From Spirochaetales bacterium Spiro_12 (GTDB lineage: Bacteria; Spirochaetota; Spirochaetia; Treponematales; Rectinemataceae): DNA of 64,000 nucleotides. This document shows positions 26,345-61,685 of this stretch, one piece after another. The stretch is from NCBI GenBank assembly GCA_001603165.1, contig LVBN01000044.1:1-64000 (forward strand), written 5' to 3'. The notes under the pieces are model-generated. The model saw only the letters and a list, made by a program, of their open reading frames with translations. It was not told the origin of the DNA and ran no database searches. The translations under genes and the position numbers were made by a program. Positions within the stretch are counted from its first letter, which is position 1. Each line of letters begins with the position of its first letter.

Positions 26345-26349
26345 TGGAG

Positions 26350-29457: not shown

Positions 29458-29475
29458 GATAAGCCTCTCATAAAT

Positions 29476-31993: not shown

Positions 31994-32076
31994 CGTCCAC
32001 CTAACCAGGGTTCAGCATGCATTTGGGACATTGAAACATTTTATGATAGATCTTTTACCAAATATTTACCAAACTT

Positions 32077-32427: not shown

Positions 32428-32466
32428 ACCTCTCCCCCTCATGATGACGAAGTCACTAAAAACGCC

Positions 32467-33459: not shown

Positions 33460-33505
33460 CCTCTTCCTCCTTACCGCATCGTTATGCCAAGAAATAGTTT
33501 AGCGC

Positions 33506-34537: not shown

Positions 34538-34663
34538 GGTCCCCTCCTCGTCACCTTATTTCATACCATGCCTGGTAGCATTAAGAGCAAAGCCTATCCA
34601 GACGGGATCTACCACCCAATATCGCGCCGCCGTGCCCGGCATATCGCCTCGGGCGGTATTTTG

Positions 34664-34691
34664 ATGATACCACGGAACCACCGCTTGTCAA
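34664..34691 (-). promoter_or_regulatory. Promoter of the ADH-isomerase-mutarotase-DeoR operon
   Basis: On the minus strand TTGACA (34691-34686), 16 bp, TATCAT (34669-34664). The 324-bp gap 34538-34861 holds this promoter, the operator cluster and the opposing promoter; no gene is seen in it. Confidence 0.6.
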
Positions 34692-34714
34692 TATTTATGT
34701 TTATACTTTACCTT

Positions 34715-34744
34715 TTAACATCACATGTTTAAACATATTAACAT
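34715..34744. promoter_or_regulatory. TAACAT/ATGTTTAAACAT operator cluster between divergent promoters
   Basis: TTAACAT (34715-34721), the perfect 12-bp palindrome ATGTTTAAACAT (34725-34736) and a second TTAACAT (34738-34744) lie between the two divergent promoters. The same TAACAT element forms the palindrome at 31088-31109. DeoR-family proteins commonly bind repeated short elements of this kind. Confidence 0.65.
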
Positions 34745-34751
34745 TTTTTCG

Positions 34752-34781
34752 TTGACGAAACACATTTTTAACACATATAAT
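34752..34781 (+). promoter_or_regulatory. Promoter of the M24-like/ADH operon
   Basis: TTGACG (34752-34757), 18 bp, consensus TATAAT (34776-34781). It lies eight bases after the operator cluster, 80 bp before the start at 34862. Confidence 0.7.
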
Positions 34782-34861
34782 GAACATCACCGTGGTCCTA
34801 CTCCTACGTAAGTCGATACAACATCACCAGGAATTTGGCCAAACGCTATGGAGGTTTTCAC

Positions 34862-47098: not shown

Positions 47099-48355
47099 TT
47101 ACCGCCTCAGCACCGTGACGCAGTTGGTCACCGAAGACCCTCCCACGTTGAGGCTGACGCCTACCTGCGGGATTTTTCCGACGGGAGCGGCTCCTATCGC
47201 CTGGCCGACCAGCTGCTTATAAAGCAGGACGTTCATGGAAACCCCGGTGGCTCCCACAGGGTGGCCCTTGGCTTTAAGCCCTCCGGAGAGATTGACCGCG
47301 CAGTCGGGATCATCCCTGCCGAAACGTCCCTCCATGTGGTCATACCCGGCCCTTCCGTCGGCCGAGAGGCCCAAGGCTTCGGTACAGAGAAGCTGATTGA
47401 TGGTAAAGCAATCATGGACCTCGGCGATATCCACGTCGTTAATGCCTATGCCCGCCTCGGCGAAGGCCTGCGCGACAGCCGCCTTGCCGGCCATGAGCTC
47501 ATGCATATTGGGTCTGGCGGAGATGGCGATCCGCTCGTTGGCGTGTCCTATGCCGGCGATCCGCACGGCCCGTTCTCCCTTGCCTAGATTGGAGTCCGCG
47601 GCGGCGATGACCAGGGCGGCGGCCCCGTCGGTCACCAGGGAACAATCGTGGAGGCGCAGGGGCGGGGCTATGAGGGGATTCTTCTCCGGCGGCAGGGCGA
47701 GAATGGCTTCGGCGTCGCTCAAGCCCAGCCGATCCGAAGGTCCTCCCTTGCCGAAATGGGCCAGAGGATTGTCCAGGCCGTTTTTATAGTTGAGAGCAGC
47801 CACCGTGGCCAGCATCCGAGCGAGGGTGGCCTCATCGAGCCTATACCGGGCGGCATACCCTTTGGCGTACTCGGCGAAGAGGCCGGGGAAGGTCATGCCC
47901 CTGGCCCCCTCCTCCGCCCAGTAGGAGCAGGTGGCCAGGCCGTGGGTTACCCCCTTTGTATCCAACAGATTCATTTTCTCAACGCCAATCACCAGGGCTA
48001 CCTTTGCCCTGCCCGATTCCACGGCGTAGAGGGCGCTGAAGAGCGCCACGGATCCGGAAGCGCAGGCGTCCTCCACCCTGGTCATGGGCTTGAAGCGCAA
48101 CGCCGCGGGAGCTATTTCGACGCCCAGGGCGGCGATATGTTCCTGGTTCGCGAATATTCCGGGGGCGCAGGAGGCGACCCAGAGGGCATCCACATCGGCG
48201 GCGTCGATGCCTGCGTCGTCCAGGGCTCCCCTTCCCGCCTCGGTGAGTAGTTCATAGATGCTTTTTAGATCGGTGACGCTTCCCGTTTCCTTGTCTTTCT
48301 TGACGAAGTTGCCGAATTTGGTGTTGTAGGCACCGATTATGCTTACCTTGGACAT
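47099..48355 (-). CDS. Thiolase-family acyl-CoA acetyltransferase
   Basis: A 418-residue thiolase fold protein. The nucleophilic cysteine lies in RVEDACASGSVALFSAL (about residue 90), and the C-terminal GHPVGATGVSMNVL supplies the active-site His. The second cysteine region is NVGGSSVTNC rather than the classical CxGxG, as in SCP2/archaeal-type thiolases. It would cleave or form a 3-ketoacyl-CoA. It is the last gene of the minus-strand operon that includes Liv transport, two hydrolases and a KAS III-like protein. Confidence 0.87.
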   Translation of the reverse strand: MSKVSIIGAYNTKFGNFVKKDKETGSVTDLKSIYELLTEAGRGALDDAGIDAADVDALWVASCAPGIFANQEHIAALGVEIAPAALRFKPMTRVEDACASGSVALFSALYAVESGRAKVALVIGVEKMNLLDTKGVTHGLATCSYWAEEGARGMTFPGLFAEYAKGYAARYRLDEATLARMLATVAALNYKNGLDNPLAHFGKGGPSDRLGLSDAEAILALPPEKNPLIAPPLRLHDCSLVTDGAAALVIAAADSNLGKGERAVRIAGIGHANERIAISARPNMHELMAGKAAVAQAFAEAGIGINDVDIAEVHDCFTINQLLCTEALGLSADGRAGYDHMEGRFGRDDPDCAVNLSGGLKAKGHPVGATGVSMNVLLYKQLVGQAIGAAPVGKIPQVGVSLNVGGSSVTNCVTVLRR

Positions 48356-48456
48356 GGGAACTCTCCTTGTATAAAAAGTCTCGCGGAAGGTTGATCCTTC
48401 GACGCGGAGGTTTTTTCAACAATCGACGCCGGTTTTATCTGACGTTCAAATTTTGC

Positions 48457-49233
48457 TCAACCCATTATTCTCCCGAGAAAATCGGAGAGAATTTCCTTAA
48501 AGAGCTCGGGTACTTCCACGATGGGCGAATGGCCCGAATTTTCGATGAGCCTGAACTCGCCCGCGGCATAGGCTTCGGCTGTTTTCCTGGCCATCTCCTC
48601 GGTGATGAGAATATCGGCCTTGCCCTGGACAACCAGCACGGGCTTGGCGAAGGAGGTTGTGAGGCCGCTGATGTCGAAGCGGCTCAAGGCCTCGGCGTTG
48701 CCGATCCAGGCCTTCTCGTTCATGCGCACCGCGTCGTCGATCAGATATTCGAAGAATCCGGCATCCTTGTTAGTCGGCAGAGTGGCGGCGAGAGCTTGCG
48801 CGAGAATGCCCCTGTTCGTGCGCATAATTTCGATGACCGGATGGCGTTCCCTGGGAGTGATTAGGCCGGTGGGAGAGGAGGAGTCCACCAGCACCATGGC
48901 GCTCAAGGCTTCGGGATTGCGGACAGCCAAAGATTGCGCCACGGCTCCGCCCAGGGAATGGCCCACCAGCACCGGAGGTTTGAGATTCAGCGCTTTGATA
49001 AAGGCCAGGAGGCAATCGGCGTAACGATGGATATCCGGCTCCGCCCCAAGGGCGCCCGATCGGCCGAAATTGGGCAGATCCAGGGCGATAGTCCTGTAGC
49101 CAGGAATATCCGCCACTTTTTCGAACCAGCGGCTGGAGCCGGTATTGCCGTGGACATAGACAATGGGGAATCCGGTTCCGAGAGAAACATAGTATATGTC
49201 GATTCCCAGAATGCTTATCCTCTGGCCAGTCAT
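48457..49233 (-). CDS. Alpha/beta hydrolase
   Basis: A 258-residue alpha/beta hydrolase. The triad is Ser in LVGHSLGGAVAQS, Asp in VQGKADILI and His in ENSGHSPIVEVP; the oxyanion segment is VYVHGNTGSS. The start at 49233 overlaps the stop of the upstream hydrolase (ATGA). It could hydrolyse an ester, lactone, thioester or C-C bond. Pairing with a second hydrolase and a thiolase suggests successive steps of an acid or ketone breakdown pathway. Confidence 0.85.
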   Translation of the reverse strand: MTGQRISILGIDIYYVSLGTGFPIVYVHGNTGSSRWFEKVADIPGYRTIALDLPNFGRSGALGAEPDIHRYADCLLAFIKALNLKPPVLVGHSLGGAVAQSLAVRNPEALSAMVLVDSSSPTGLITPRERHPVIEIMRTNRGILAQALAATLPTNKDAGFFEYLIDDAVRMNEKAWIGNAEALSRFDISGLTTSFAKPVLVVQGKADILITEEMARKTAEAYAAGEFRLIENSGHSPIVEVPELFKEILSDFLGRIMG

Positions 49234-50033
49234 AGTCCGAACTCCTTGAAAAAGGCGAGAAACACATCCGCCGTCTCGCCAGGTTTCTCGATGACCGCGG
49301 CGTGGCCCGCTCCGGGAATTTCCACGAGCTTTACCGGGCCTCCCAGGTGCTCGGCGATCGTGGACGCGAAACCTCGATGCTTGAGGATATCCAATTCTCC
49401 GACCACGACCAGGGAGGGGCAGGTCACGCGATGCAGAGACTCGGTGATATCCAGCGCGAGGAAAGCCCTGCAGAGCCCTACGAATGCTTCGAACCAATCC
49501 TTAGGAAGGGATGCCACCGCGTCTTCCCTGGAATCCAAAGCCTGGCGGTTGGCTCCGATGAACTCCGACGAATAGGTCCAGGGCAGAAGTGTCTTGTAGA
49601 ATACCCTTGGATCGGTCAACGCCGCCGACATCCAGGATTCGGCGGTGGCGCGCAACAGAGGATCGATTTCACTCACACCGTCTATCACCGTGAGGCTCAG
49701 GGTTTTTTCAGGATGAGCGAGAGCGAAGGACATGGCGACTTCCGAGCCATAGGAGGTACCGACGATGTGCGCTTTATCAATGCCGAGTTTTTCCATAAGG
49801 GAGGAAAGATCCCGGGAATGCTGGTCGAAACTGTAGTCGCCTGCGGGGCGCTCGCTCAGGGTCTGACCCCGCAAATCGTGGCAGAGCACTCTGAACGAAG
49901 CGCTCAAGCGTTCCGCGAAAGCCTGCCAATGCCCGATGGACATGGCGATGCCGTTGAGCAGCACGACAAAGGGACCCTTGTCGCCTAGAATTTCATAACG
50001 CAGTCGAACTCTGTTCACTATCGAATCGGGCAT
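49230..50033 (-). CDS. Alpha/beta hydrolase
   Basis: A 267-residue alpha/beta hydrolase distinct from its neighbour. The triad is Ser in IVGTSYGSEVAMS, Asp in VVGELDILKHR and His in PGAGHAAVIEKP. The oxyanion region is VVLLNGIAMSIGHW. The ATG at 50033 follows GGAGAATGCT. The nucleophile elbow GTSYGS resembles 3-oxoadipate enol-lactonase/esterase relatives. It lies 121 bp after LivF. Confidence 0.84.
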   Translation of the reverse strand: MPDSIVNRVRLRYEILGDKGPFVVLLNGIAMSIGHWQAFAERLSASFRVLCHDLRGQTLSERPAGDYSFDQHSRDLSSLMEKLGIDKAHIVGTSYGSEVAMSFALAHPEKTLSLTVIDGVSEIDPLLRATAESWMSAALTDPRVFYKTLLPWTYSSEFIGANRQALDSREDAVASLPKDWFEAFVGLCRAFLALDITESLHRVTCPSLVVVGELDILKHRGFASTIAEHLGGPVKLVEIPGAGHAAVIEKPGETADVFLAFFKEFGL

Positions 50034-50154
50034 AGCATTCTCCTTTCCTCGCGGCAAAAATGCGATCCGCCGACCGCCGCTCCATGGTTGCCACTCGCTT
50101 ATGCGCGACGGTGAGCGCGCACAAGCCATCGGTCATCGCCGGATGGACGCCCCC

Positions 50155-50856
50155 TTATATCCCCAGATAGGACTTGAGCACATAGGGGTTGGTCCTCAAT
50201 CCCTCGGCGCTGTCCTCTATGACGATTTTGCCGTTCTCCAGCACATAGCCCCTGTCGATGGACTTAAGACTTTCCCTCACATTCTGCTCGGTGACCATGA
50301 TGGATACTGTTTTCTTCAGCTCCCTCAGAACTTCGAATACCTCGGCGACGATGGAAGGCTGCAGCCCCAGGGAAGGTTCGTCGAGGATAAGGAGCTTCGG
50401 GTTGGACATCAGCGCCCTGGCTATGGCGACCATGCGCTGCTGGCCTCCGGACATGGTGCCCGCCAGTTGTTTTCTCCTCTCCTTGAGAATAGGAAAAAGG
50501 GCGAACACTTTTTCCATTTGCTCCGGTATTATTCCCTTGGCGTGGGGTATATAGGCCGCGCCGAGCACCAGATTGTCCTCCACGGACATGCCGGGGAAGA
50601 GTTCGCGCTCCTGGGGGACGAGGGCGACCCCCATGCGCGCCATCAGGTGAGTATCGGTACCGCCTATTTGCCTGCCCGCGAACTCGATCTCTCCCGCCCA
50701 GAGCTTGTTCATTCCCATAACGGCGCCGATGAGGGTGGTTTTGCCAGCGCCATTCGGACCGAATAGTCCGACCGACTCCTTGCCCACGTCGAGGCTGACC
50801 CCCTCGAGCACTCGCATGCGGCCATAGCCGCATTCCAATCCGCGTATTTTCAGCAT
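50155..50856 (-). CDS. livF: Branched-chain-type ABC transporter ATPase LivF
   Basis: A 233-residue ABC ATPase of the LivF type. It has GPNGAGKTTLIGAVMGMN, the signature MSGGQQRMVAIARALM and LLILDEPSLGLQPSIV. It works with LivG at a LivHM pore. Its start overlaps the LivG stop by one base. In this operon the importer probably takes up a carboxylic acid used by the adjacent enzymes rather than leucine. Confidence 0.92.
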   Translation of the reverse strand: MLKIRGLECGYGRMRVLEGVSLDVGKESVGLFGPNGAGKTTLIGAVMGMNKLWAGEIEFAGRQIGGTDTHLMARMGVALVPQERELFPGMSVEDNLVLGAAYIPHAKGIIPEQMEKVFALFPILKERRKQLAGTMSGGQQRMVAIARALMSNPKLLILDEPSLGLQPSIVAEVFEVLRELKKTVSIMVTEQNVRESLKSIDRGYVLENGKIVIEDSAEGLRTNPYVLKSYLGI

Positions 50857-51575
50857 CAGGCGGCTCCTCCAAGATAGGCTTCGACGACCCGGGGGTTCTT
50901 CGACACTTCTTCGTAGGGCCCCTCGGCGATGAGTTCGCCCGCCTCCAGGACTATCACGCGGTGCGTAAGCTCCCGGATGACACCCATCACATGCTCGACC
51001 ACGCCGACCGCGAGTTTGCGCTCCCGGGCGATCCTTTGCACCGTGGCTATAAGATCCTTGGTTTCGTCGGCGTTGAGTCCCGCCATCACCTCATCCAGGA
51101 AGAGCACCTCCGGCTCATTGGCGAGAGCCCGGGCGATTTCCATTTTTTTGACCTCTAGAATAGTGAGCTTGGAGGTGTCGCGATCCAGATCCTTAAGACC
51201 TAATTCACCGCAGAGATCAGCGGCACGCCTTCGCGCCTCCCTCATGGAATGCCCTCGGGCGAAGATGGACCCCACCATGACATTTTCGATGAGACTGAGG
51301 TTTTCCAGCGGGTGGATGAGCTGATAGGTGCGGGCGATTCCCAGCCGAGCCCTCTCGTGGGCGGGCATGTAGGTGATGTCCTGCCCCTTGTACTCTATTT
51401 TTCCCTCGCCGGGCATTATGATGCCGGAGATCAGGTTGATAAAGGTGGTTTTCCCGGCGCCGTTCGGCCCGATGATGCCGAGAATTTCCCCTTCGTCCAT
51501 CGAGAAGGACACCTTGTTGACGGCCACGAGCCCTAAGAATCTACGGGATAGCCCGATCGTTTTCAGTTTTGTCAT
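50856..51575 (-). CDS. livG: Branched-chain-type ABC transporter ATPase LivG
   Basis: A 239-residue LivG-type ATPase. Walker A is GPNGAGKTTFINLISGI and Walker B is VLFLDEVMAGLNADE. The usual signature LSxGQ is replaced by LTILEVKKMEIARAL, a deviation shared by one subgroup of Liv-type ATPases (recalled, not searched). It overlaps LivM by four bases. Complete with LivF it forms an asymmetric nucleotide-binding pair in which only one signature is canonical. Confidence 0.9.
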   Translation of the reverse strand: MTKLKTIGLSRRFLGLVAVNKVSFSMDEGEILGIIGPNGAGKTTFINLISGIIMPGEGKIEYKGQDITYMPAHERARLGIARTYQLIHPLENLSLIENVMVGSIFARGHSMREARRRAADLCGELGLKDLDRDTSKLTILEVKKMEIARALANEPEVLFLDEVMAGLNADETKDLIATVQRIARERKLAVGVVEHVMGVIRELTHRVIVLEAGELIAEGPYEEVSKNPRVVEAYLGGAA

Positions 51576-52510
51576 TTACGGTTCCTCCCCGCGGCACGCA
51601 TGGTTTTCCTGGCCAATCCGAGCAAACCCTGGGGCATGAACAGGATGACGACGACAATCATCACGCCGTACACGACCAGGTGTCCGTAGGGAATTTGAAG
51701 CTTGAGCCACTCGGACACGAGTCCCAAAAGGAGCCCGCCGAGAATGGGACCCACCGTCGAATGGATACCGCCCAAAAGCGCCATCGCCAGAGGGAGCAGG
51801 GTGAAATCGGCGCTGAACACCGTTTCGGGGGATGCGAATCCGTAGGACATGACGAAGATGCCTCCCATCATGCCTTGGATGGCGGAAGTGACCACAAAGG
51901 CCAGCAAAAGCCATCGGAAAATATTCACGCCCGAAGACTTGGCGGATATCTCGTTGTTGCGGATCGCGGTGAGGGCGAAGCGCACCTTGCTTTTTTCGAA
52001 CCAGTAGGATGCCAGGAGGGCCACGGCCAGACCGGCGAGGGTAAGCCAATACAGGTTTCTGGAAGCTCCCCCGAAAATAATACCCTGCTGAACGACAATA
52101 CCCTCGGGACCGCCGGAGAAATCGTGCATGTTATGGATGATGATTCTGAAGATTTCCCCCAGGGCGAGGGTGACGATGGAAAAATAGGTATGGCGCAGGC
52201 GCAGGATGAGAAATCCTATGAGAAAAGCCGCCAGTCCGGCGAAAAGCCCCGCGAAGGGTATGGAAAGCCAACCGGGCATGCCGCCGCGTACCACCGCCAG
52301 GATGGAAGCATAGGATCCGAGCCCAAAGAGACCCGCGATGCCAAAAGAAATCTGCCCGGAACGCAGAAGCATGTCCCAGGTGACGGCGAGGGCCATGTAA
52401 AGCATAATGTTGCGCGCCACCTGCAAGGGATAGTCGCCCATGAACATGGGCAGAAGAATCGCCACCCCGATCGCCGCGACAGGAAGGGAGCGGGCGAGTG
52501 TCCGGTTCAT
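51572..52510 (-). CDS. livM: Branched-chain-type ABC transporter permease LivM
   Basis: A 312-residue permease with about nine membrane segments. It has SGQISFGIAGLFGLGSYAS, the LivM hallmark, and ALTAIRNNEISAKSSGVN in the cytoplasmic loop. The start at 52510 overlaps the LivH stop by four bases (ATGA), which rules out the longer reading. Confidence 0.9.
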   Translation of the reverse strand: MNRTLARSLPVAAIGVAILLPMFMGDYPLQVARNIMLYMALAVTWDMLLRSGQISFGIAGLFGLGSYASILAVVRGGMPGWLSIPFAGLFAGLAAFLIGFLILRLRHTYFSIVTLALGEIFRIIIHNMHDFSGGPEGIVVQQGIIFGGASRNLYWLTLAGLAVALLASYWFEKSKVRFALTAIRNNEISAKSSGVNIFRWLLLAFVVTSAIQGMMGGIFVMSYGFASPETVFSADFTLLPLAMALLGGIHSTVGPILGGLLLGLVSEWLKLQIPYGHLVVYGVMIVVVILFMPQGLLGLARKTMRAAGRNRK

Positions 52511-53430
52511 GATTTCCTCCCTTTGAGCGAGCGACTCATGATGACGACGATGATGAGGACGAAAAATACTATGTCCGCCCACTCCCTGGAACCCCTGAAG
52601 GCCCGCAGAAAGTTTTCGGTAAGGCCCAAAAGGACGCTGGCGCTCAAGATGCCCGGGATATTGCCCACCCCCGCCATCGCGACGAGGCAGAAGCTTTTCA
52701 TGGTAAAGGGCGATCCGACGGTGGGGAAAATCGCCGATTTAGTGAGGAAAAGCGCGCCCATGGCGCCCACCAGGGCGATGGCCAGGGCGAACACCAATCC
52801 GTAGGTGCGATAGACGTCGATCCCGACGATAGCCGCCCCCTTGGGATTTTGTCCCACCGCCAGGGCCGCCTTGCCCGTTGTGGTTCTTTTGAGGAAAAAA
52901 TTCAAGCCTCCGGCGAAAAGGATCGCCGCCGCGACAAAGACGAAGGACCAGATTCCGAAGGTGAGCTCCCCTATGTCCATCGACGCTGAGACATAGTCGA
53001 GGGGCATCTTATAGGTCTGGGAGGTGAAGACCAGGTTGATCGCCTGGCTGAAGACTATGGCGATGCCGAAGGTAAGGATGAGTTGATTGAGCTCGGGCGC
53101 CTTGAGCGCGCGCCTGATCGTTAATTGGAAGATTATCCAGCCGAAAATGGCAGTTACGATCGCCGTGGGAACGATGGCGATCAGGGGATCCATGCCGAGA
53201 GCTTTGCAGGTGAAGTAGGTGGCGTAGGATGCCAACATCATGAATTCGCCATGGGCCAGATTTACGATGTGGACTATGCCCAGCACCAAACCCATGGGAA
53301 TGGCGATCGCCGCGTAAAGGCCGGCCGCCTGGAGCCCGTAAATCAAGACCGTGGGCCTCCATAGCAAGAGCGCGGCCGTCGCCGCGAGGGCGAAAACGGA
53401 AATGATCAGGTTACGTCGTTTCAATGCCAT
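52507..53430 (-). CDS. livH: Branched-chain-type ABC transporter permease LivH
   Basis: A 307-residue permease with about eight membrane segments. LGIVHIVNLAHGEFMMLASY near residue 50 is the LivH hallmark, and AVGQNPKGAAIVGID is the coupling loop. The start at 53430 has AAAGGA upstream. A 12-bp hairpin separates it from the receptor gene. Confidence 0.9.
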   Translation of the reverse strand: MALKRRNLIISVFALAATAALLLWRPTVLIYGLQAAGLYAAIAIPMGLVLGIVHIVNLAHGEFMMLASYATYFTCKALGMDPLIAIVPTAIVTAIFGWIIFQLTIRRALKAPELNQLILTFGIAIVFSQAINLVFTSQTYKMPLDYVSASMDIGELTFGIWSFVFVAAAILFAGGLNFFLKRTTTGKAALAVGQNPKGAAIVGIDVYRTYGLVFALAIALVGAMGALFLTKSAIFPTVGSPFTMKSFCLVAMAGVGNIPGILSASVLLGLTENFLRAFRGSREWADIVFFVLIIVVIMSRSLKGRKS

Positions 53431-53454
53431 CTTGACTGTCCTTTTACAGGAAGA

Positions 53455-53484
53455 AACCGCCGCGGAAACGAGTCCGCGGCGGTT
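53455..53484 (-). terminator. Hairpin between LivK and LivH
   Basis: AACCGCCGCGGA (53455-53466) and TCCGCGGCGGTT (53473-53484) form a 12-bp stem with a 6-base loop, 20 bp after the receptor stop. On the minus strand it is followed by a U/C-rich stretch. It is probably a partial terminator, as seen after the other receptor genes in this window. Confidence 0.7.
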
Positions 53485-53504
53485 GTTCAAATTGTACTAC
53501 CCTG

Positions 53505-54716
53505 TCACTTCCACGCGGGGAAGGGATAGACCGGTGCGGCGGTCGCGGCTTCGAAGGGCCAGATCACTTCCTGGAGCCCGCCCTGCCACTGGAGAATCTT
53601 CTGCCGAGTGATGCCCTGATGCTTGATCACGTTGGAGGGCTTGAAGGTGATGGTCTCGCCGAGGGCCGAGGCATAGCTCGTAGCCTCGAGCGCCTTGACC
53701 AGGGCGGCTGTCTCGGTTGTGCCGGCGGCTTTGATGCCGTTGGCCAGGATCTTCACCGCGTCGTAGGCCAGGAGGGCGAAATAGGTCGCGGGTTCTTCCC
53801 TGTACCGTTTCACGTAGGCGTCGTAGAACTTCTTGCTCTGGGCGTTGGTGTCGTTCATGGCGGTGGACCACATGCCGTAGAGCATGACGTTGTTGGCCAG
53901 CCTGGAGGATCCGAAACCGATGGGCCATCCGGGGGGCGCCCCGAGATAGATACCGGGGGAGAATTTCATCGCCTTGGATTGCTCGAGCAGGGGAAGCGCG
54001 TCGGCGTCGTAACCGGCCCAGAGGAAGAGGTCCGGCTTGAAAGCCTTGGCGGCCTCGAGCACGGCGGTGTAGTCGCCGCCGCCCAGGAGGGCGCTCTTGA
54101 AGGGCGCTCCATCGATGGTGTAGCGCTTATCGGCGCCGAAGAGGATTTTGGTCGAATCCCAGGAGGATTTGCCGAAGGCCCCTTCCTCGTAGGCCAGGAA
54201 TATTTTCTTGATCTGGACGTTGGGATACTTTTTCTGGATCGCGTCCCAGCCTTCGGCGTAGGAAGCGCCCTGATTGTAATCCCAGGGATGGAGATGGAAG
54301 TAGAAATCCGATTCCGGGCTGGGGCCGAGGGCCTTCTCGACGGTTGCGGACCCGGCGGCGCCGGTGGACATGACAACCTTGTTGTACTTCTTGAACGAGG
54401 GAATCTTCCCAAGCTCGGCGCCCGAGGCCATGCCGCCCACGAATACATCCACCTTGTCCACCGTGGCGAGCTTCTCGACCGCGGCCGCCGCCTTATCGGC
54501 CTTGCCTTCATCGTCTACGACGATAAGCTGGAGGGTTTTGCCGCTGATGCCGCCGGCGGCGTTGATTTCGTCAACCGCCAGCTGAGCGGCGGCGCTCCCC
54601 TGTTTTCCGGTGATATCGGCGAGAGTCCAGATTCCGCCGATCTTGATGGTGCCCTGCGCGGCGACGCCGGAAACCACCAGGGCTATCGCGGCGATGGCCA
54701 AAACAAAACGTTTCAT
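53505..54716 (-). CDS. Branched-chain-type periplasmic receptor LivK
   Basis: A 403-residue type I receptor of the Liv/AmtA group. The signal peptide MKRFVLAIAAIALVVSG is cut at VAAQ, without lipobox. The mature part has IKIGGIWTLADITGKQGSAA, a typical opening, and SSWDSTKILFGADKRY in the second lobe. The ligand could be branched amino acids, amides, urea or aromatic or aliphatic acids. The operon enzymes (KAS III-like, SDR, hydrolases, thiolase) favour an organic acid. Confidence 0.88.
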   Translation of the reverse strand: MKRFVLAIAAIALVVSGVAAQGTIKIGGIWTLADITGKQGSAAAQLAVDEINAAGGISGKTLQLIVVDDEGKADKAAAAVEKLATVDKVDVFVGGMASGAELGKIPSFKKYNKVVMSTGAAGSATVEKALGPSPESDFYFHLHPWDYNQGASYAEGWDAIQKKYPNVQIKKIFLAYEEGAFGKSSWDSTKILFGADKRYTIDGAPFKSALLGGGDYTAVLEAAKAFKPDLFLWAGYDADALPLLEQSKAMKFSPGIYLGAPPGWPIGFGSSRLANNVMLYGMWSTAMNDTNAQSKKFYDAYVKRYREEPATYFALLAYDAVKILANGIKAAGTTETAALVKALEATSYASALGETITFKPSNVIKHQGITRQKILQWQGGLQEVIWPFEAATAAPVYPFPAWK

Positions 54717-54806
54717 TACTGCCTCCTTGGGACCGCCGCGTTTCCGGCGATACCCACATTGTGCCGGTGCGACAATCGTCGCCCGGAAATGCGCACAAGC
54801 GATTCT

Positions 54807-55547
54807 CTAGAGAACAAGGCCTCCATCCACCCTGAGGACCTGACCGGTGATGAACACCGCCTCGTCGCTGCAGAGGAAGAGGACTGCGTTGGCGATATCG
54901 ATGGGCATGGCCAGCCTTCCCAAGGGTGTCTTGGCGATGATGGGTTCCAACACCTTTTCGGGCACCGTTTCGATCATTGGGGTGCGGCAGTAGCCGGGGG
55001 ATACGGAATTGACCCTGACCTTGGCTCCCTTGCGGGCGAATTCCTTGGCCCAGCCCTTTGTCATGGCCACGATTCCGCCCTTGGCGGCCGCATAGTTGGA
55101 TTGGCCGATGTTGCCGTCCAGACCCACCACCGAGGCTATGGAAACAATGGCCCCGCTTCCGCCCAGCATCATCTGGGGGGCCACCGCCCGGGTCATCTTG
55201 AAGACTCCGGCGAGATTGACATTGATGACCGCCCACCAATCGTCGTCGCTCATCTTTTGTATAAGAGCATCCTTCGTGATGCCCGCATTGTTCACCAGGG
55301 CGTCGATCCGGCCGAACTCGGCGACTACCTTTTCCACGAAAGCCTGTATCTGGGCAGTGTCGGTGACGTTGACCACCGCGCCCCGCACGTTTTTGCGGCC
55401 CGCCTGTAGCTCCTCAAAGCCCGAATCGTTCACGTCCAGGGCGAATACCATCCCGGCCCCTTCCTCGGCGAATCGATCGACGATGGTCCTGCCGATCCCC
55501 CGGGCTCCTCCGGTGACCAGGCAAATTTTGTCTTTCATCCTATCCAT
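54807..55547 (-). CDS. FabG-like SDR (3-oxoacyl reductase type)
   Basis: A 246-residue short-chain dehydrogenase with a strong FabG pattern: TGGARGIGRT, VNNAGITKDALIQKMSDDDW, Ser in SIASVVG, YAAAK and NSVSPGYCRTPM. It would reduce or oxidise a 3-oxoacyl/3-hydroxyacyl thioester. GGGAGGACC precedes the ATG. It follows the KAS III-like gene by 30 bp and precedes the receptor gene, so it is part of the acyl catabolic operon rather than of a fatty-acid synthesis cluster (no acpP, fabD or fabF nearby). Confidence 0.87.
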   Translation of the reverse strand: MDRMKDKICLVTGGARGIGRTIVDRFAEEGAGMVFALDVNDSGFEELQAGRKNVRGAVVNVTDTAQIQAFVEKVVAEFGRIDALVNNAGITKDALIQKMSDDDWWAVINVNLAGVFKMTRAVAPQMMLGGSGAIVSIASVVGLDGNIGQSNYAAAKGGIVAMTKGWAKEFARKGAKVRVNSVSPGYCRTPMIETVPEKVLEPIIAKTPLGRLAMPIDIANAVLFLCSDEAVFITGQVLRVDGGLVL

Positions 55548-55577
55548 AATGGTCCTCCCAAATTTAATCTCGGAAAT

Positions 55578-56624
55578 TCAGCCCCGGGCGATGGACGGCC
55601 CGGCCTGGTTTCGACCGACGACGGGCCCCCAACGCACTACCGAGCTGGCCCAGACAAAGCCCAGGCCCGCGCCCACGAGAACAATCCTAAAGCCGTCCTT
55701 AATCCTGCCCGCCTCCAAGCCCAGTTTTATGGAGAGCAGCTGATCGTTCTGCCCCAGATGGCCGTACTCGTCCAGGTAGGTCGACTGTTCTTCCTTCAGT
55801 CCCAACTCCTGGAGCACCGCCAAATGGGCGCTACGCTTGAAGTGGAGTATGGCCAGATAGTCGATATTCTGCTCCCCGAAGCCCGACTTGCGCATGGATT
55901 CGCGGATCACGGCATAGAAATTGGGCATGGTAACCTCGCCCAGCTTATTCTTGAACGCGGCCTCGTCGGGAACCCTGAAAAAAGGCTGGGCGGCATCGGC
56001 GGCTTCGGGGGGCCACTTTTTAGAGCCCAGGACGGGCACTACGCACATTTCGGAAAGCGACCCGTCGCCCCGGAAAGAGGAAGCGAGAAGTTCGTTCCTG
56101 CCCAAATCCCTTACCAGAAGGCAGGCCGAACCAGCGGAACCGATGTCCATCATGAAACGGGTCGGAGGATAGGAGAGCTGTATGAGATCGTTGTTCCGGT
56201 ACCCAGAAACCAGCAAAACATTCTTGAGATCGTCCCGGGCCAGCATGAGCGACTTGGCGACATCCAGGGCGGCCATCATGGAACCGCACATAGCCTCCAT
56301 ATCGAAGCTCCAGGCTTTGACAGCGCCCAGTCTGTTGGCCACATTGAGGCCGGCGAGCCAGCAGGGATAGTCCTTATGCTGGGCTCCGCACCAGATCACG
56401 AGGTCCACATCGGCTGCCGCGACGCCGGCTTCTTCCAGAGCCTTTCGGGCTGCCTTGTAGCCCATGTCGGCGGTGGTATCATCCGGTCCGGCCACGGGCT
56501 TGCGCTTTATCCCGAACTTGAGGGCGATCACATCCTCCGGGACCCCCGTCTCGGCGGCCAGTTCCGCTGCGCTCAGCTCTGTGCTGGGAAAGTAGAGACC
56601 AATACCGGCGATTCCTACATGCAT
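55578..56624 (-). CDS. KAS III (FabH)-like condensing/thiolytic enzyme, first
   Basis: A 348-residue ketoacyl-synthase III-like protein. The Cys nucleophile is in DMEAMCGSMMAALDVA (about residue 110) and a His in ILHFKRSAHLAV. The position of the FabH Asn (YGNTSAAS) reads YGHLGQNDQLL, so His replaces Asn. It could make or break a carbon-carbon bond in an acyl thioester. The ATG at 56624 has GGAG six bases upstream. It is the first gene after the FadR-like operator at 56643-56660. Confidence 0.82.
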   Translation of the reverse strand: MHVGIAGIGLYFPSTELSAAELAAETGVPEDVIALKFGIKRKPVAGPDDTTADMGYKAARKALEEAGVAAADVDLVIWCGAQHKDYPCWLAGLNVANRLGAVKAWSFDMEAMCGSMMAALDVAKSLMLARDDLKNVLLVSGYRNNDLIQLSYPPTRFMMDIGSAGSACLLVRDLGRNELLASSFRGDGSLSEMCVVPVLGSKKWPPEAADAAQPFFRVPDEAAFKNKLGEVTMPNFYAVIRESMRKSGFGEQNIDYLAILHFKRSAHLAVLQELGLKEEQSTYLDEYGHLGQNDQLLSIKLGLEAGRIKDGFRIVLVGAGLGFVWASSVVRWGPVVGRNQAGPSIARG

Positions 56625-56642
56625 CGGACACTCCATAAATAG

Positions 56643-56660
56643 TGAATCATCTCTCATTAC
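56643..56660. promoter_or_regulatory. FadR-like palindrome, site 1
   Basis: TGAATCA, 4 bp, TCATTAC. It resembles the Bacillus FadR operator (TGAATGA-N4-TCATTCA) at 11 of 14 arm positions. It overlaps the -10 box of the minus-strand promoter, where binding would block initiation. A near-identical site lies at 56889-56906. Confidence 0.6.
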
Positions 56661-56688
56661 TATCTGCCCGGTTTTTCCGATACGTCAA
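56659..56688 (-). promoter_or_regulatory. Promoter of the KAS III-Liv-thiolase operon
   Basis: On the minus strand TTGACG (56688-56683), 18 bp, GATAGT (56664-56659). The 367-bp gap 56625-56991 holds this promoter, its opposite at 56846 and two operator-like repeats; the middle part (56700-56840) shows only AT-rich sequence and no gene. Confidence 0.5.
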
Positions 56689-56845
56689 GAGCTAATTTTG
56701 ATTTTTTATCGTTTTTTTTGACTTTTTCGAAATGTCGGCCGCGATACTGGATAACTATTTGTCTTTTTTGCATATAACAGCACTCGTAATTCGGCGGCGA
56801 ACGCCCGCCCTACCATCAGAAGGGTGGAATTATTGAAAATTTCCC

Positions 56846-56874
56846 TTGCGCGTTTACGATAAGGACCCTATACT
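56846..56874 (+). promoter_or_regulatory. Promoter of the TetR-KAS III-CoA-transferase operon
   Basis: TTGCGC (56846-56851), 17 bp, TATACT (56869-56874). The transcription start would fall near 56881, a few bases before the second FadR-like palindrome. Confidence 0.55.
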
Positions 56875-56888
56875 TGACCAAGAAGAAG

Positions 56889-56906
56889 TGAATCAGTTCT
56901 CATTAA
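56889..56906. promoter_or_regulatory. FadR-like palindrome, site 2
   Basis: TGAATCA, 4 bp, TCATTAA, matching the Bacillus FadR pattern at 12 of 14 arm positions and site 1 (56643) at most positions, including the preceding G. It lies directly downstream of the expected start of the regulator transcript, so autoregulation by the TetR-type protein encoded at 56992 is likely. Confidence 0.6.
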
Positions 56907-56991
56907 AGATTACGCGAAGAATGAGCGCTTGGCGAACGGAACGCAGGGAGCGCCGCGACAGGGTGTTATCATTGTAGAAGAAGGAGAAACG

Positions 56992-58143
56992 ATGGCCGTA
57001 TTCGCCGCCGCCCAGGAAGGACCGCCTTCGAGTAAAGGAAGGCTCGTACAGGCGGCTATAGAACAATTCTCCGCGAAATGGTACGGGACCGTCTCGGTTG
57101 CCGAAATTTGCAGGGCCGCAGGTCTTTCCAACGGTCTTTTTTACCGTTACTTCCAGAGCAAGGAAGAAATTTTCAAGCATATCCTGGAGTTCGTGATAAA
57201 CCGCATAGCGGAAGCCCTGAGATCGATTCCGGGCACTGGGAGCAGGGAGCGATTGAGGGAATTCTCTAGAATCATCTTCGAATTCTCCAGGGATAATCCG
57301 GCCCTGATACGGGTTTTCAGGGAAGGCCAGTATCGCTTTCTCGAATACGAACGCAGATTGGAGGAAGTGTACACCGAAGCGCTGGCCAGGGCCCTGGGAA
57401 CAGGCATCTCCCAGGGAGGATATATCTTCGCCCTCGGCGGCCTGCGGTTCGCCGCGATTCGCTCGGCCTTGCAAAACGTTCCGGTAAGGCTCGAAACCCT
57501 TCAGCGCATCATCGAACAGGGTCTCTTCAAGCCCCTGGGGCTGGATACGGCGAAGGTTTTTTCCACCTCCATCCATCCTTTGCCCATCGATATCATGCCG
57601 AACGCGAGGGAGCGGCTTTTTCGCGAAGGCAAGACGCTTTTCGGGCAGCAGGGCTATTTCGAAACCAATATTCACGAGATCACCACCGCGGCCGGACTTT
57701 CGACCGGCGCTTTCTATACCTACTTTCCCACCAAAGAAGCTTTTTACAAGGAACTCATAGAACGTGTGGGCAGAGAAGTGCGGCGCTTCATTTCCCTGAA
57801 CCTCGATCCTTCCCTCAATCGGGTGGAACGGGAACTACGGGGGCTTTGGCTGTTTATCGTTTTCTTGTCCCTGGACAAACACTGTTACCGGCTTGTGCGA
57901 GAGGCGGAGTTCGTGCTTCCCGGGGTGGTCAAAGCGTACTACGACGCCTTTGTGAGGGGATATCTGAAATTCGGCGATGCTTACCCCGATCTCGATCAGG
58001 GCAGCGCGATCGAATTCATGCTCGGCGTGGCGCATTACCTGGGCTTGGAGACTTTTCTCGGAAAATCCCTGGAGAAGACCAAGCCCCTCATCATGGAAAT
58101 AGGGAACTACTACAAGAAGGGCTTCGATGGAAAACTGCACTGA
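56992..58143 (+). CDS. Tandem double TetR-family regulator
   Basis: A 383-residue protein containing two complete TetR-type units. The first HTH reads TVSVAEICRAAGLSNGLFYR with YFQSKEEIF (about residues 30-65). The second reads NIHEITTAAGLSTGAFYTYF with PTKEAFYKEL (about 215-250). Each is followed by a helical ligand/dimer domain. Ordinary TetR proteins are about 200 residues with one HTH, so this is a fusion or internal duplication, possibly a covalent pseudo-dimer. The ATG at 56992 follows AAGGAGAAACG. It heads the + strand operon and probably controls both divergent promoters through the FadR-like palindromes; the ligand may be an acyl-CoA. Confidence 0.88.
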   Translation: MAVFAAAQEGPPSSKGRLVQAAIEQFSAKWYGTVSVAEICRAAGLSNGLFYRYFQSKEEIFKHILEFVINRIAEALRSIPGTGSRERLREFSRIIFEFSRDNPALIRVFREGQYRFLEYERRLEEVYTEALARALGTGISQGGYIFALGGLRFAAIRSALQNVPVRLETLQRIIEQGLFKPLGLDTAKVFSTSIHPLPIDIMPNARERLFREGKTLFGQQGYFETNIHEITTAAGLSTGAFYTYFPTKEAFYKELIERVGREVRRFISLNLDPSLNRVERELRGLWLFIVFLSLDKHCYRLVREAEFVLPGVVKAYYDAFVRGYLKFGDAYPDLDQGSAIEFMLGVAHYLGLETFLGKSLEKTKPLIMEIGNYYKKGFDGKLH

Positions 58144-58155
58144 CAGGAGGAAGTG

Positions 58156-59187
58156 ATGGCGCGGTCTGTCATCAAGAGCACGGGCATATATGTTCCCGGC
58201 GAGGCTATCGACAACGGTAGGTTGATGAAACTGACGGGAATAGAGTTCGACGCCGTCAAGCACGAAGCCAAGTTGGGAATCGCCAGCCGGCATATCGCCA
58301 GACTTTCGGGATTGAAGGAGAGCAGCGCCGATTTCGCCGAGAAGGCAGCCAGGGCGGCGCTGGAAAAAGCCCGGGTCCAGCCCGGTGAGGTGGGGCTTTT
58401 TGTCGTAGCCACCGATACGCCGGAATACATATCCCCCGCCACGGGCATCCTGCTCCAGGGAAGACTTCAGGGCGGCGAGTATGAATCCAGAGCCTTCGAC
58501 CTGGGAGCCTCCTGCGCCAGCTTCGTGACAGCCCTGGACATGGTCGCCCGGCTCCAGATTTCCGATCCCGGCCTGCGCTATGCCCTGGTGGTGGGAATAT
58601 ACAACATGCCGGCCTATATCAGGGACGGCGACGCCTTCGGCTGGTCCATTTTCGCCGACGGCGCGGGCGCTGTGCTTCTGGAGCGGGCTGAGGAGACCGG
58701 GGAAACCCGGCGGCACGGTTTAGCATCGGGCTACCTGGAGGCTGTCTTCAGGGCCGATGGTACCCAATGGGACTATGTGGGCGTGTACGCCGGGGGAACG
58801 AAGAAGCCGGTGACCAAGGAGCTTCTGGAGCAGGGTAAATACGGTTTGGAATTGCTGCAAAGGCTCCCGGGCGACAGGAATGTGAAGCTCTGGCCTCCCC
58901 TGGTACGGCGACTTCTTGAAAAGGCGGATATTCCGCAGTCCGCGGTCGCCCACTATTTCTTCACCCAGATCAACCGCTCGGTGATCGTCCAGGTGATGGA
59001 GTTGCTGGGAGAGCCGATGGAGAAAACCACGACGGTGATGGAAAAGTACGGATATACAGGCTCGGCCTGCATTCCCATGGCCCTCCACGAAGCGCTGAGT
59101 TCAGGCCGGGTCCGCAAGGGCGATTTAGTCGTACTGGTCGCCTCGGGAGCGGGCCTGGCGGTGGGAGCCTCGTTGATACGGCTTTAG
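58156..59187 (+). CDS. KAS III (FabH)-like protein lacking catalytic His and Asn, second
   Basis: A 343-residue ketoacyl-synthase III-like protein. The Cys is kept in DLGASCASFVTALDMV (about residue 115). The FabH PHQANxRI motif reads FFTQINRSVI, with Thr for His, and YGNTSAASIP reads YGYTGSACIP, with Tyr for Asn. The other conserved elements (FADGAGAVLLE; SGAGLAVGASL) remain. Loss of both decarboxylation residues suggests transfer or hydrolysis of acyl groups rather than malonyl-dependent condensation. ATG 58156 lies five bases after AGGAGG. It sits between the regulator and the CoA-transferase. Confidence 0.82.
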   Translation: MARSVIKSTGIYVPGEAIDNGRLMKLTGIEFDAVKHEAKLGIASRHIARLSGLKESSADFAEKAARAALEKARVQPGEVGLFVVATDTPEYISPATGILLQGRLQGGEYESRAFDLGASCASFVTALDMVARLQISDPGLRYALVVGIYNMPAYIRDGDAFGWSIFADGAGAVLLERAEETGETRRHGLASGYLEAVFRADGTQWDYVGVYAGGTKKPVTKELLEQGKYGLELLQRLPGDRNVKLWPPLVRRLLEKADIPQSAVAHYFFTQINRSVIVQVMELLGEPMEKTTTVMEKYGYTGSACIPMALHEALSSGRVRKGDLVVLVASGAGLAVGASLIRL

Positions 59188-59270
59188 AAAAAGCGCCCGA
59201 GAGGAGGGGTTCGTGCGAACGGACCGGATTCCTTCCTTGGGTTATAGATCATGCAAGCAAGGAGAGTTCC

Positions 59271-60578
59271 ATGGATTGGCTGGATATCTATAAACGCAAG
59301 CTCATCGCCAGGGACGACGCGGTTTCCAAAATCAGGAGCGATAGCGACGTCATCGTCGGTCAGTGCGCTTCCGAGCCCCAGGGCTGCATGGAACGTTTTC
59401 ATATAGTGGCCGGCAAAGTGGAGAACGTGAGGGTGTTCTCGGTGCTCACCCTCAAGCCCTACGATTTTTACATGAAGCCCGAGATGAAGGGGCATTTCGA
59501 GCTGGCATCCTGGTTCCACGCCCCGGGCTCAAGGGCTGCCCTCAAGGCTGGCACGGGTACCGTGACCTACGTGCCCAACATGCTCCACAGGGCCGCTTCG
59601 GACAGAATTCACGCCCACAGACCTGAGTTTTTCTTCGGCACCTGCACGCCCCCGGACAAGCATGGCTTCGTTTCCCTCTCCCTCGGCGTGACCTATGAAA
59701 AAGACATGGTGGAGGCCGCCGAAACAGTTATTCTGGAGGTGAACCCCCGGCTGCCCAGAACCTTCGGCGATACCCAGGTCCATGTTTCCCGGGTGGATTA
59801 CTTCGTGGAGCATGACCAGGAAGTGCCTTTCCTGCCGGCGCCCAATCCCGACGAGACAGATATGGCCATAGGAGCCCATATAGCCGAGCTCGTGGACGAC
59901 GGCTCGACCATCCAACTGGGAATAGGCGGCATTCCCAACGCCGCGGCCCTGGCCCTGAGGCATAAGAAGGACCTGGGAGTCCACACGGAAATGCTGGTGG
60001 ATTCCATGATGGAGCTGTACGAGATGGGGGTTGTCACCAACGCGAAAAAGGCGCTGAAAAAGGGAAAATTCATCACCACCTTCGCCATGGGCTCACGCAA
60101 GTTCTACGACTGGCTGGACGACAACGTGGCTGTGGAGTTCCAGCGCGGACGTTGGGTAAACGATCCCTCGGTGGTGGCCCAGAACTCCAGGATGGTATCG
60201 ATCAACACATGCATTTCCGTGGATCTCACTGGGCAGGTCGCCAGCGAAAGCATAGGCCCTGCCCAGTATTCGGGCACCGGCGGCCAGTCCGACACGGCGA
60301 CAGGAGCTGTGGCGGGTTTCGACGGGCTGGGTAAGAGCATCATCGCCTGCTACAGCACGGCGAAAAAAGGAACGGTCTCCACCATAGTGCCCATGCTGCC
60401 CGAAGGTTCGGCGGTTACCCTGCACCGCAGTCTGGTGGACCACGTGGTTACCGAACACGGCATAGCCCGCCTGCGGGGAAGGACGGTCAGGGAACGAGCC
60501 AGGGAACTCATCGGCGTGGCAAACCCCGCGTTCAGAGAGGAGCTGCTCGCCCAAGCCAAAGCACTGGGCTATCTCTGA
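59271..60578 (+). CDS. Acetyl-CoA hydrolase/transferase family CoA-transferase
   Basis: A 435-residue class I CoA-transferase of the Cat1/4-hydroxybutyrate CoA-transferase type. It would move CoA between acetyl-CoA and an organic acid. The glutamate that forms the CoA thioester is in DLGVHTEMLVDSMMELYEMG. Flanking motifs are QLGIGGIPNAAALALRHKK and GTGGQSDTATGAVAG, and SLVDHVVTEHGIARLRGRT closes the active site. It is the last gene of the operon that starts with the tandem TetR regulator. It probably activates the acid imported by the Liv system encoded divergently. Confidence 0.92.
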   Translation: MDWLDIYKRKLIARDDAVSKIRSDSDVIVGQCASEPQGCMERFHIVAGKVENVRVFSVLTLKPYDFYMKPEMKGHFELASWFHAPGSRAALKAGTGTVTYVPNMLHRAASDRIHAHRPEFFFGTCTPPDKHGFVSLSLGVTYEKDMVEAAETVILEVNPRLPRTFGDTQVHVSRVDYFVEHDQEVPFLPAPNPDETDMAIGAHIAELVDDGSTIQLGIGGIPNAAALALRHKKDLGVHTEMLVDSMMELYEMGVVTNAKKALKKGKFITTFAMGSRKFYDWLDDNVAVEFQRGRWVNDPSVVAQNSRMVSINTCISVDLTGQVASESIGPAQYSGTGGQSDTATGAVAGFDGLGKSIIACYSTAKKGTVSTIVPMLPEGSAVTLHRSLVDHVVTEHGIARLRGRTVRERARELIGVANPAFREELLAQAKALGYL

Positions 60579-60584: not shown

Positions 60585-61685
60585 CTAGTGCCTGCGGATT
60601 TCGATATCCCCGGAGCCTGTGGAGAGATTAACCGGAGTCAGTCCGGAGCCCAGCACCGCCTCCCGGGGGCCTGAAAGCCTTGAGTCGCAGTCGACGGATC
60701 CCGAGACGGTGGACCACGAGACAAGAGCGTCGAAACTATCGTCATAACCGAGGCGTATATCGCCGGAGGCGCTTCTGGCCGATATCTCTCCTCCCCGGGG
60801 ATCGGTTTCGATCCCTATTGTACCCGATGCTGTTTTAACCCGTATGGACTGGGAACAGCCGGCGATCGCCACATCCCCGGAGGCGCTGGAGACAGCGACA
60901 TCCCCATCGCAGGCCTGGATTTCCACATCGCCGGATGCGGTCTGAATATCCAAGGCGCCTACCCTGTCGATAACTTCCACATCGCCGGACAGGCTGTGAA
61001 TCGAAAGCTCCTCCACCGAAAGGGGAATCCAAAGCTCCATGCTCTCCGGTTCGCTGTGATCCTTGCCGGTGGAAATGCTGAGCATGCCCTTCTCGTCATC
61101 CTCGATCTCGATGGCCGAACGTTCCTGCCCATGGGCTTTGAGGGAGAGCCCCCCGGGCGAGAGATAAATCCTGAGGTCGCTGGACTTGGTGCGAACTTCG
61201 ATTTTCTCCACGCCGTCCACCGCGATATCCTCCATGTTGAGGTTTCTCGTTCTCCCCCCCTGGCCGTCGGAGCCTTGTTCCCTGAAAACTTTGCTTCTGC
61301 GGAACATTCCGGCCAGGTCGAGGGCTTTTTTTATCACGTCGCCGAGATCTTCGCCGTCGATGGTGATCTTGGCCTTCCCGGTTTTCTCCCCCCGGGACTT
61401 GGTCGTTTCCGCCGAGGATGCGCCGCTGGTCGCTTCCGCGCCCTCGATCGATCCCATATCGCCACTCGAACCCGCGCCGCCGCCCTCCCCTTCTTGCAAC
61501 AGGCTTTTTGCGAGGCTTTCCGGAGCTTCGAGACCCGCTATGATCTCCTCTTCGCTCGCCCCCGGGTTTTGCCTGCGCAGTTCGTCGATATGGTCCTCGA
61601 TTTCCAGCAGTATGTCCCGCCTGGCTTCCTCGTCAAAATCGAGCAGACCACGCGACAATCGTTCCATGTATTCGCTTCGTGTCAT
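60585..61685 (-). CDS. HAAS-DUF4097 protein without membrane segments
   Basis: A 366-residue protein. Residues 1-65 form a HAAS-type helical domain (YMERLSRGLL; ILLEIEDHIDELRRQN; IIAGLEAPESLAKSLLQE). A low-complexity acidic/Gly-Ser linker follows, then a DUF4097-type beta-solenoid from about 180 with repeated SGD[VI]/SG[ST][IV] turns every 18-25 residues (SLSGDVEVIDRVG; TASGDVEIQACDG; SASGDVAIAG). HAAS domains usually precede membrane helices and are paired with PadR regulators, as here (its start overlaps the PadR stop). No hydrophobic helix or signal peptide is visible, so this member is probably cytoplasmic. Its function is unknown; envelope-stress signalling is inferred from the family. 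Confidence 0.82.
   Translation of the reverse strand: MTRSEYMERLSRGLLDFDEEARRDILLEIEDHIDELRRQNPGASEEEIIAGLEAPESLAKSLLQEGEGGGAGSSGDMGSIEGAEATSGASSAETTKSRGEKTGKAKITIDGEDLGDVIKKALDLAGMFRRSKVFREQGSDGQGGRTRNLNMEDIAVDGVEKIEVRTKSSDLRIYLSPGGLSLKAHGQERSAIEIEDDEKGMLSISTGKDHSEPESMELWIPLSVEELSIHSLSGDVEVIDRVGALDIQTASGDVEIQACDGDVAVSSASGDVAIAGCSQSIRVKTASGTIGIETDPRGGEISARSASGDIRLGYDDSFDALVSWSTVSGSVDCDSRLSGPREAVLGSGLTPVNLSTGSGDIEIRRH

Follow-up and report, generated by a model that had tools for sequence, protein, structure and literature searches.

Positions 47099-60578 of the 64,000-nucleotide window analysed here (positions 1 to 64,000 of contig LVBN01000044.1, assembly GCA_001603165.1, Spirochaetales bacterium Spiro_12) carry 13 genes in two divergent arms with a shared promoter between them, as assigned by Pfam and NCBIfam profile searches. 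We read this locus, tentatively and at a little under an even chance, as a self-contained catabolic module for an imported beta-oxygenated carboxylic acid, or its lactone or ester, that would be controlled by a regulator with two TetR domains in tandem and that includes two ketosynthase III (KAS III)-like enzymes, KAS1 and KAS2. The strongest evidence lies in the altered active sites of KAS1 and KAS2, the tandem regulator, its candidate operator, and the wider regulon seen in relatives. Every protein is of a known family; no named pathway with this combination of genes, for which the original prediction had known of none, was found in the literature searched, where coverage was partial, and nothing useful was found there on catabolic KAS III enzymes, on Rectinema or Mesotoga pathways, or on structure 8WCH.

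Outward from the promoter, the minus arm encodes KAS1, a short-chain dehydrogenase (SDR), LivK, LivH, LivM, LivG, LivF, two alpha/beta hydrolases and a thiolase; the plus arm encodes the regulator, KAS2 and a CoA-transferase. The features are listed below with the basis of each assignment in brackets.

47099-48355, minus strand: SCP2-type thiolase, acetoacetyl-CoA thiolase-like (Pfam, NCBIfam, nearest structure 6esq, conservation)
48457-49233, minus strand: alpha/beta hydrolase 2, HSLGG nucleophile motif, internal ATG used as start (Pfam, conservation)
49230-50033, minus strand: alpha/beta hydrolase 1, enol-lactonase/polyhydroxyalkanoate (PHA)-depolymerase-like, GTSYG nucleophile motif, internal ATG used as start (Pfam, NCBIfam, conservation)
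50155-50856, minus strand: LivF-type ATPase (Pfam)
50856-51575, minus strand: LivG-type ATPase with branched-chain amino acid ATP-binding cassette C-terminal domain (Pfam)
51572-52510, minus strand: LivM-type permease (Pfam; start set by homology)
52507-53430, minus strand: LivH-type permease (Pfam; start set by homology)
53505-54716, minus strand: LivK-type binding protein lacking the LivJ Glu226/Thr102 contacts (Pfam, alignment, conservation)
54807-55547, minus strand: FabG-like SDR, YxxxK motif intact (Pfam, NCBIfam, conservation)
55578-56624, minus strand: KAS1, KAS III-like, NF005308/PRK06840 family (profile, alignment, predicted structure)
56643-56656, minus strand: candidate operator 1, TGAGAGATGATTCA, directly 3' of a -35/-10-like pair at 56688-56659, KAS1 arm (promoter comparison)
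56889-56902, minus strand: candidate operator 2, TGAGAACTGATTCA, preceding the regulator-KAS2-CoA-transferase arm (promoter comparison)
56992-58143, plus strand: tandem TetR regulator, two TetR_N domains in one chain (Pfam, NCBIfam)
58156-59187, plus strand: KAS2, second KAS III-like enzyme, Cys121/Thr271/Tyr301 (Pfam, alignment, predicted structure)
59271-60578, plus strand: CoA-transferase, 4-hydroxybutyrate/butyryl-CoA:acetate type, HTEM glutamate conserved (Pfam, NCBIfam, conservation)

All the genes named in the original prediction lie where it had placed them, and the region contains no acyl carrier protein (ACP), acyl-CoA dehydrogenase or enoyl-CoA hydratase gene, as it had said; the regulator too is present, although its two TetR_N domains in a single chain had not been seen. 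Translation of KAS1 probably starts at Met12 (56624) and not at the start of the open reading frame (ORF) at 56657, because the predicted model shows disorder over residues 1-10 of the longer ORF and the upstream ATG falls within the conserved operator. The source genome is a 2.31 Mb metagenome-assembled genome in 139 contigs, 92% complete. Among named relatives, Spirochaetaceae UBA4077 and UBA6076 are the closest and Rectinema is somewhat more distant.

Neither KAS1 nor KAS2 keeps the Cys-His-Asn triad of FabH. KAS1 belongs to the NF005308/PRK06840 family (428.7 bits against a cut-off of 315) and has conserved Cys124, His272, Lys274 and His300 in the numbering of the 359-residue ORF. Aligned with Escherichia coli FabH (C112/H244/N274), the KAS1 family retains the cysteine, has Leu at the H244 column with His as the next residue, a placement of His272 that comes from sequence alignment and may shift by one residue, and replaces Asn274 with His, within the motif GHxGQND. 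The GH here is similar to the equivalent motif in thiolases and KAS I/II. In the KAS2 family the triad columns hold Cys, Thr and Tyr, with motifs FTQ and GYTGS, and the two patterns (C/H/H and C/T/Y) are held in nearly every homologue aligned. Both proteins are predicted to adopt the KAS III fold of the thiolase superfamily (AlphaFold2 mean predicted local distance difference test scores of 86.9 and 87.3, from alignments in which rows from plasmid records were left out), and the best Foldseek matches of the models are FabH structures, with template modelling scores of about 0.77-0.91. A third KAS III of the genome, on contig C129, retains C-H-N in full and is presumably its real FabH. The altered triads, the conserved cysteine and this separate enzyme together argue against FabH duty for KAS1 and KAS2. 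Chemistry of the HMG-CoA synthase type was considered for KAS1 and rejected, as FabH-type models far outscore HMG-CoA synthase models for both proteins and the Glu position, read by eye, is not kept.

A second subfamily of KAS1-like proteins (37% identity) is seen at locus L124 and at L105 13740-16375, in an operon with genes for a sodium/solute symporter-like protein, an NADPH-dependent FMN reductase-like protein and an AMP-binding ligase. Its members have IFMKSS in place of ILHFKRS, losing His272 and retaining Lys274 and His300. An apparent ligase-KAS fusion in one long ORF at L124 proved to be two adjacent genes in different frames.

The same genes recur together in distant genomes. A search of named genomes with KAS1 as bait gave 80 loci, mostly in Spirochaetota, Holophagaceae (including Geothrix fermentans) and Thermotogae (including Mesotoga and Petrotoga); the 28 with full flanks, which span Spirochaetota, Holophagae and Thermotogae, were used for gene counts. 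A tandem TetR gene, LivG/LivF ATPases and an alpha/beta hydrolase are present at all 28, the CoA-transferase at 27, KAS2 at 22, the SDR at 16 and the SCP2-type thiolase at 15; in Thermotogae a PhaA/AtoB-type acetyl-CoA acetyltransferase occupies the thiolase slot. KAS1 is found in 10 of 296 genomes of the phylum, and all eight of the phylum's genomes with a CoA-transferase of at least 76% identity also carry KAS1. On haloarchaeal megaplasmids, LivK-G-F and two permeases are followed directly by a KAS1 homologue (~38% identity), with MaoC, hydrolase and AMP-binding ligase genes nearby in Salarchaeum and Halobaculum. A Chloroflexota plasmid has in a row genes for FabG, KAS III, CoA-transferase, thiolase, a Zn-ribbon OB-fold (DUF35-type) protein, hydrolase and Liv. 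Near-identical sets thus occur in several bacterial phyla, with a simpler, reduced version in haloarchaea, and because the set recurs across phyla it is not a chance neighbourhood. The original prediction would have lost its footing had these genes not been conserved together, and across the full-flank loci they clearly are.

A further unifying feature is an asymmetric candidate operator, TGAGANNYGATTCA, found by comparing the divergent promoters. It lies no more than 450 bases upstream of KAS1 in 61 of the 74 loci with enough upstream sequence (95 copies), with every copy upstream of KAS1 in the same orientation; by comparison, 1.1 Mb of surrounding sequence has a single copy, and a reversed control has none. 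The source genome contains exactly two copies, one at each promoter, and none elsewhere. When one mismatch is allowed, two such matches arise by chance in 11 of 100 shuffles of the 64-kb window, so the case for the operator rests on its exact conservation and genome-wide uniqueness. The tandem TetR protein would be expected to bind these sites, and the locus is most likely self-regulated, with both arms under common control. Mce3R of Mycobacterium tuberculosis provides a precedent, with two TetR domains in one chain and an asymmetric, non-palindromic operator in two copies, controlling lipid metabolism genes (PMC11667970). It differs in its target genes and operator sequence, and the recurrence of the operator across phyla is a feature of the present locus.

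A scan of 39 genomes (the source and its relatives) gave 55 operator copies and none for the reversed control. Away from the cluster, copies lie just upstream of SCP2-type thiolases that are ~70% orthologues of the window thiolase (L110, L111), PhaA/AtoB-type acetyl-CoA acetyltransferases (L106, L109), AMP-binding ligases (L114, L103, L028) and an SDR (L105). They also precede acyl-CoA dehydrogenase genes, followed at L105 by EtfB and EtfA and at L107 by an EtfA-looking reading frame, with no Etf gene read at L115. At L108 (5065-5448 and 5513-8422) an operon of Kal-like, enoyl-CoA hydratase, acyl-CoA dehydrogenase and EtfB genes lies behind the operator. At L116 (3-2039) the gene for a membrane H+-pyrophosphatase (PF03030) starts just 3' of an exact copy, as would be expected if the pyrophosphate made by acyl-CoA ligases serves as an energy source. 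Several of the operator-preceded thiolases adjoin lysine-fermentation genes, of which Kal, KamE, AtoDA and Kdd were assigned by eye and KamD was confirmed by profile. Several exact copies in other relatives (for example L113, L118, L119, L120 and L122) fall inside genes, and these are probably chance occurrences. As judged from the genes it precedes, the common denominator of this predicted regulon is acetoacetyl-CoA and short-chain acyl-CoA metabolism.

Acyl-CoA dehydrogenase (PF02771) is absent from the source genome and two sister genomes, the three genomes of the genus, and profile searches of the source genome and genus likewise gave no beta-keto acid cleavage enzyme (BKACE, PF05853) and no lysine 5,6-aminomutase alpha subunit KamD (PF09043), the latter being present in many relatives. 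A single enoyl-CoA hydratase-family gene is present genome-wide, on another contig. The module therefore operates independently of beta-oxidation and lysine fermentation, an indication that its substrate is already oxygenated at the beta carbon; since the genus keeps the module intact without an acyl-CoA dehydrogenase, entry should be above the step of that enzyme. Classical fatty-acid synthesis can be set aside, with no ACP or fab genes in the region, as can classical beta-oxidation, with no acyl-CoA dehydrogenase genome-wide, and the earlier statement that the system is neither of these is supported. A KAS module that replaces BKACE in lysine fermentation was also considered and rejected, given the many KAS-module relatives that keep BKACE and the lack of the aminomutase in the genus. 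Elsewhere in the genome, contig C65 24000-40000 (L128) carries genes for a three-subunit 2-oxoacid oxidoreductase, a thiolase, 3-hydroxybutyryl-CoA dehydrogenase, enoyl-CoA hydratase and a putative HpaB-type/4-hydroxybutyryl-CoA dehydratase-like protein, all but the enoyl-CoA hydratase assigned by eye from their N-termini; this cluster suggests a C4-acid fermentation route without acyl-CoA dehydrogenase.

LivKHMGF has the architecture of hydrophobic amino acid uptake transporters (HAAT-type), and LivK aligns with branched-chain amino acid receptors. In alignment with E. coli LivJ and LivK it lacks LivJ Glu226 and Thr102 and keeps Ser79. We take Glu226 and Thr102 to be ligand contacts, the former being the glutamate that binds the amino acid. 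Several other loci have non-orthologous LivK proteins in which Glu226 is likewise missing in the alignment (L068 is ambiguous). These apparent losses argue against an ordinary alpha-amino-acid importer, the finding that the original prediction had regarded as fatal to it. The CoA-transferase is homologous over its full length to 3gk7 (354 bits), its HTEM aligning with HSEM (H-x-E-M), and scores 247 bits against TIGR03948, below the equivalog cut-off of 674.8. The thiolase has intact ACASG, HDCF and GHPVGATG motifs that align to those of its nearest solved structure, the archaeal acetoacetyl-CoA thiolase 6esq, and are conserved in 24 sequences. The hydrolases score to PHA-depolymerase and enol-lactonase models of NCBIfam.

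A plausible scenario is that LivKHMGF would import the acid, that the alpha/beta hydrolases would open esters or lactones or later free a product from CoA, and that the CoA-transferase would move CoA from acetyl-CoA onto the acid. The FabG-like SDR could then oxidize the 3-hydroxyacyl-CoA to a 3-oxoacyl-CoA, on which KAS1 and KAS2 would perform a CoA-dependent Claisen-type step at a C-C bond, most likely retro-Claisen cleavage, and the thiolase would convert acetoacetyl-CoA to two acetyl-CoA; an acyl-CoA intermediate would act as inducer, releasing the regulator from the two operators at both promoters. This reading is favoured by the constant presence of the importer, by CoA activation through the nearly universal CoA-transferase or, in haloarchaea, a nearby AMP-binding ligase, and by a LivK without the amino-acid ligand residues. 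It is favoured also by the operator's position in relatives, before acetoacetyl-CoA-type thiolases (with the PhaA/AtoB type in the same slot in Thermotogae) and before acyl-CoA dehydrogenases (with Etf at L105 and L107), acyl-CoA ligases and the H+-pyrophosphatase. Several points weigh on the other side. The SDR is outside the cluster at 12 of the 28 loci, which leaves the redox step short of universal in the cluster; the Thermotogae loci lack KAS2; the literature searched yielded no KAS III for which catabolic thiolysis is proven; the direction of a pathway cannot be read from sequence; and the 92% completeness of the genome limits the absences, with acyl-CoA dehydrogenase lacking from the two sister genomes as well. 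We consider it fairly likely that the module is catabolic, with acetoacetyl-CoA or acetyl-CoA as its end point. A retro-Claisen role for the KAS pair is a more guarded proposal, possible but distinctly short of even, and it is a shade more doubtful still that KAS1 and KAS2 (C/H/H and C/T/Y) form a catabolic KAS III class that cleaves a 3-oxoacyl-CoA or related beta-dicarbonyl thioester, at the core of an undescribed acid-degradation pathway of bacterial phyla with a reduced form in haloarchaea. What endures of the original prediction is a conserved, co-regulated acid/acyl-CoA system, whereas KAS thiolysis and catabolic flow are steps that we, too, infer.

Three other explanations deserve consideration. 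The KAS pair could be anabolic, condensing acyl-CoA units to a ketone, a resorcinol-like product or a signal, with Liv retrieving a precursor or the product; the acetoacetyl-CoA synthase NphT7 and KAS III enzymes of the PqsC/DpgA type are condensing enzymes of this kind. KAS III folds do normally condense, the nearest folds are FabH enzymes, and the C/H/H of KAS1 resembles the KAS I/II triad. We nevertheless think this unlikely, as no ACP, malonyl-transferase, carboxylase, cyclase or tailoring enzyme is nearby, an importer accompanies every locus, and in relatives there is co-regulation with acetoacetyl-CoA thiolase, acyl-CoA dehydrogenase-Etf and acyl-CoA ligase. Of similarly low probability is a short-chain hydroxy-acid route (3-hydroxybutyrate or its oligomers, or 4-hydroxybutyrate) run by the hydrolase, SDR, CoA-transferase and thiolase, with the KAS proteins serving in accessory transacylation. 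It would account for a CoA-transferase closest to 4-hydroxybutyrate CoA-transferases, for the PHA-depolymerase and enol-lactonase scores of the hydrolases, and for the separate cluster, read by eye, of a putative HpaB/4-hydroxybutyryl-CoA dehydratase-like gene with thl, hbd and crt, but it offers no explanation for the two KAS III enzymes, which are strictly conserved, and KAS1 persists at loci with no SDR in the cluster.

Least probable, and in our view quite improbable, is a branch of amino-acid fermentation, in which Liv would import a lysine-related amino acid into a variant of the lysine-to-butyrate/acetate pathway. The operator in relatives does lie inside or beside lysine-fermentation clusters (KamDE, AtoDA, Kal-like, Bcd-Etf); set against this are a genus devoid of KamD, BKACE and acyl-CoA dehydrogenase, the separate BKACE kept by many KAS-module relatives, and the loss of LivJ Glu226 from LivK.

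Among characterized systems, the closest functional parallel to the proposed catabolic module is a CoA-dependent cluster for deoxyribonate in Klebsiella michiganensis, for which cleavage of a beta-hydroxy acid to acetyl-CoA has been proposed (PMC6365646). It shares a transporter, CoA activation, beta-hydroxyacyl-CoA dehydrogenase, thiolase, CoA-transferase and lactonase, but has transporters of the major facilitator superfamily instead of Liv, activation by CoA-synthetase, a glycerate kinase and no KAS III-like enzymes, cleavage being by an ordinary thiolase (PMC6365646). The beta-keto acid route through BKACE (deoxyribonate in P. simiae; Kce in lysine fermentation) similarly combines a dehydrogenase and C-C cleavage with acetoacetate activation and an acetoacetyl-CoA thiolase; the source genome has no BKACE, and its place at the C-C bond is taken by KAS III-like enzymes. 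FabH shares the fold and nucleophilic Cys of KAS1 and KAS2 but differs in its triad; the present locus lacks ACP and fab genes, and the genome encodes its own FabH elsewhere. The archaeal acetoacetyl-CoA thiolase/HMG-CoA synthase/DUF35 complex (6esq) also sets an SCP2-type thiolase beside KAS III-like enzymes, and its DUF35-type Zn-ribbon OB-fold protein has a counterpart in the Chloroflexota plasmid version; the profile search of the source genome, however, gave no DUF35 partner (PF01796), and KAS1 and KAS2 score as FabH-type rather than HMG-CoA synthase.

In the window, the module is flanked by genes for an AMP-binding protein (44517-46232) and a HAAS/DUF4097 toastrack protein (60585-61685), which recur at 5 and 7 of the 28 loci respectively, mostly in close relatives. 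A 248-residue ORF at 46229-46975, between the AMP-binding gene and the thiolase, has no Pfam match. Further away, 18468-36000 has a lower G+C content (47-52%) and repeated sets of ORFs of ~511, 320, 325 and 340 residues, which look like several sugar ABC transporter operons.

If the catabolic reading is true, ketosynthases of the fatty-acid-synthesis type have been recruited to break C-C bonds, in a pathway of bacteria that are frequent in sediments and digesters and, in reduced form, of haloarchaea, and many genes annotated as 3-oxoacyl-ACP synthase would be misannotated. The unique operator then provides a direct route to the substrate, as it marks the genes that would rise together.

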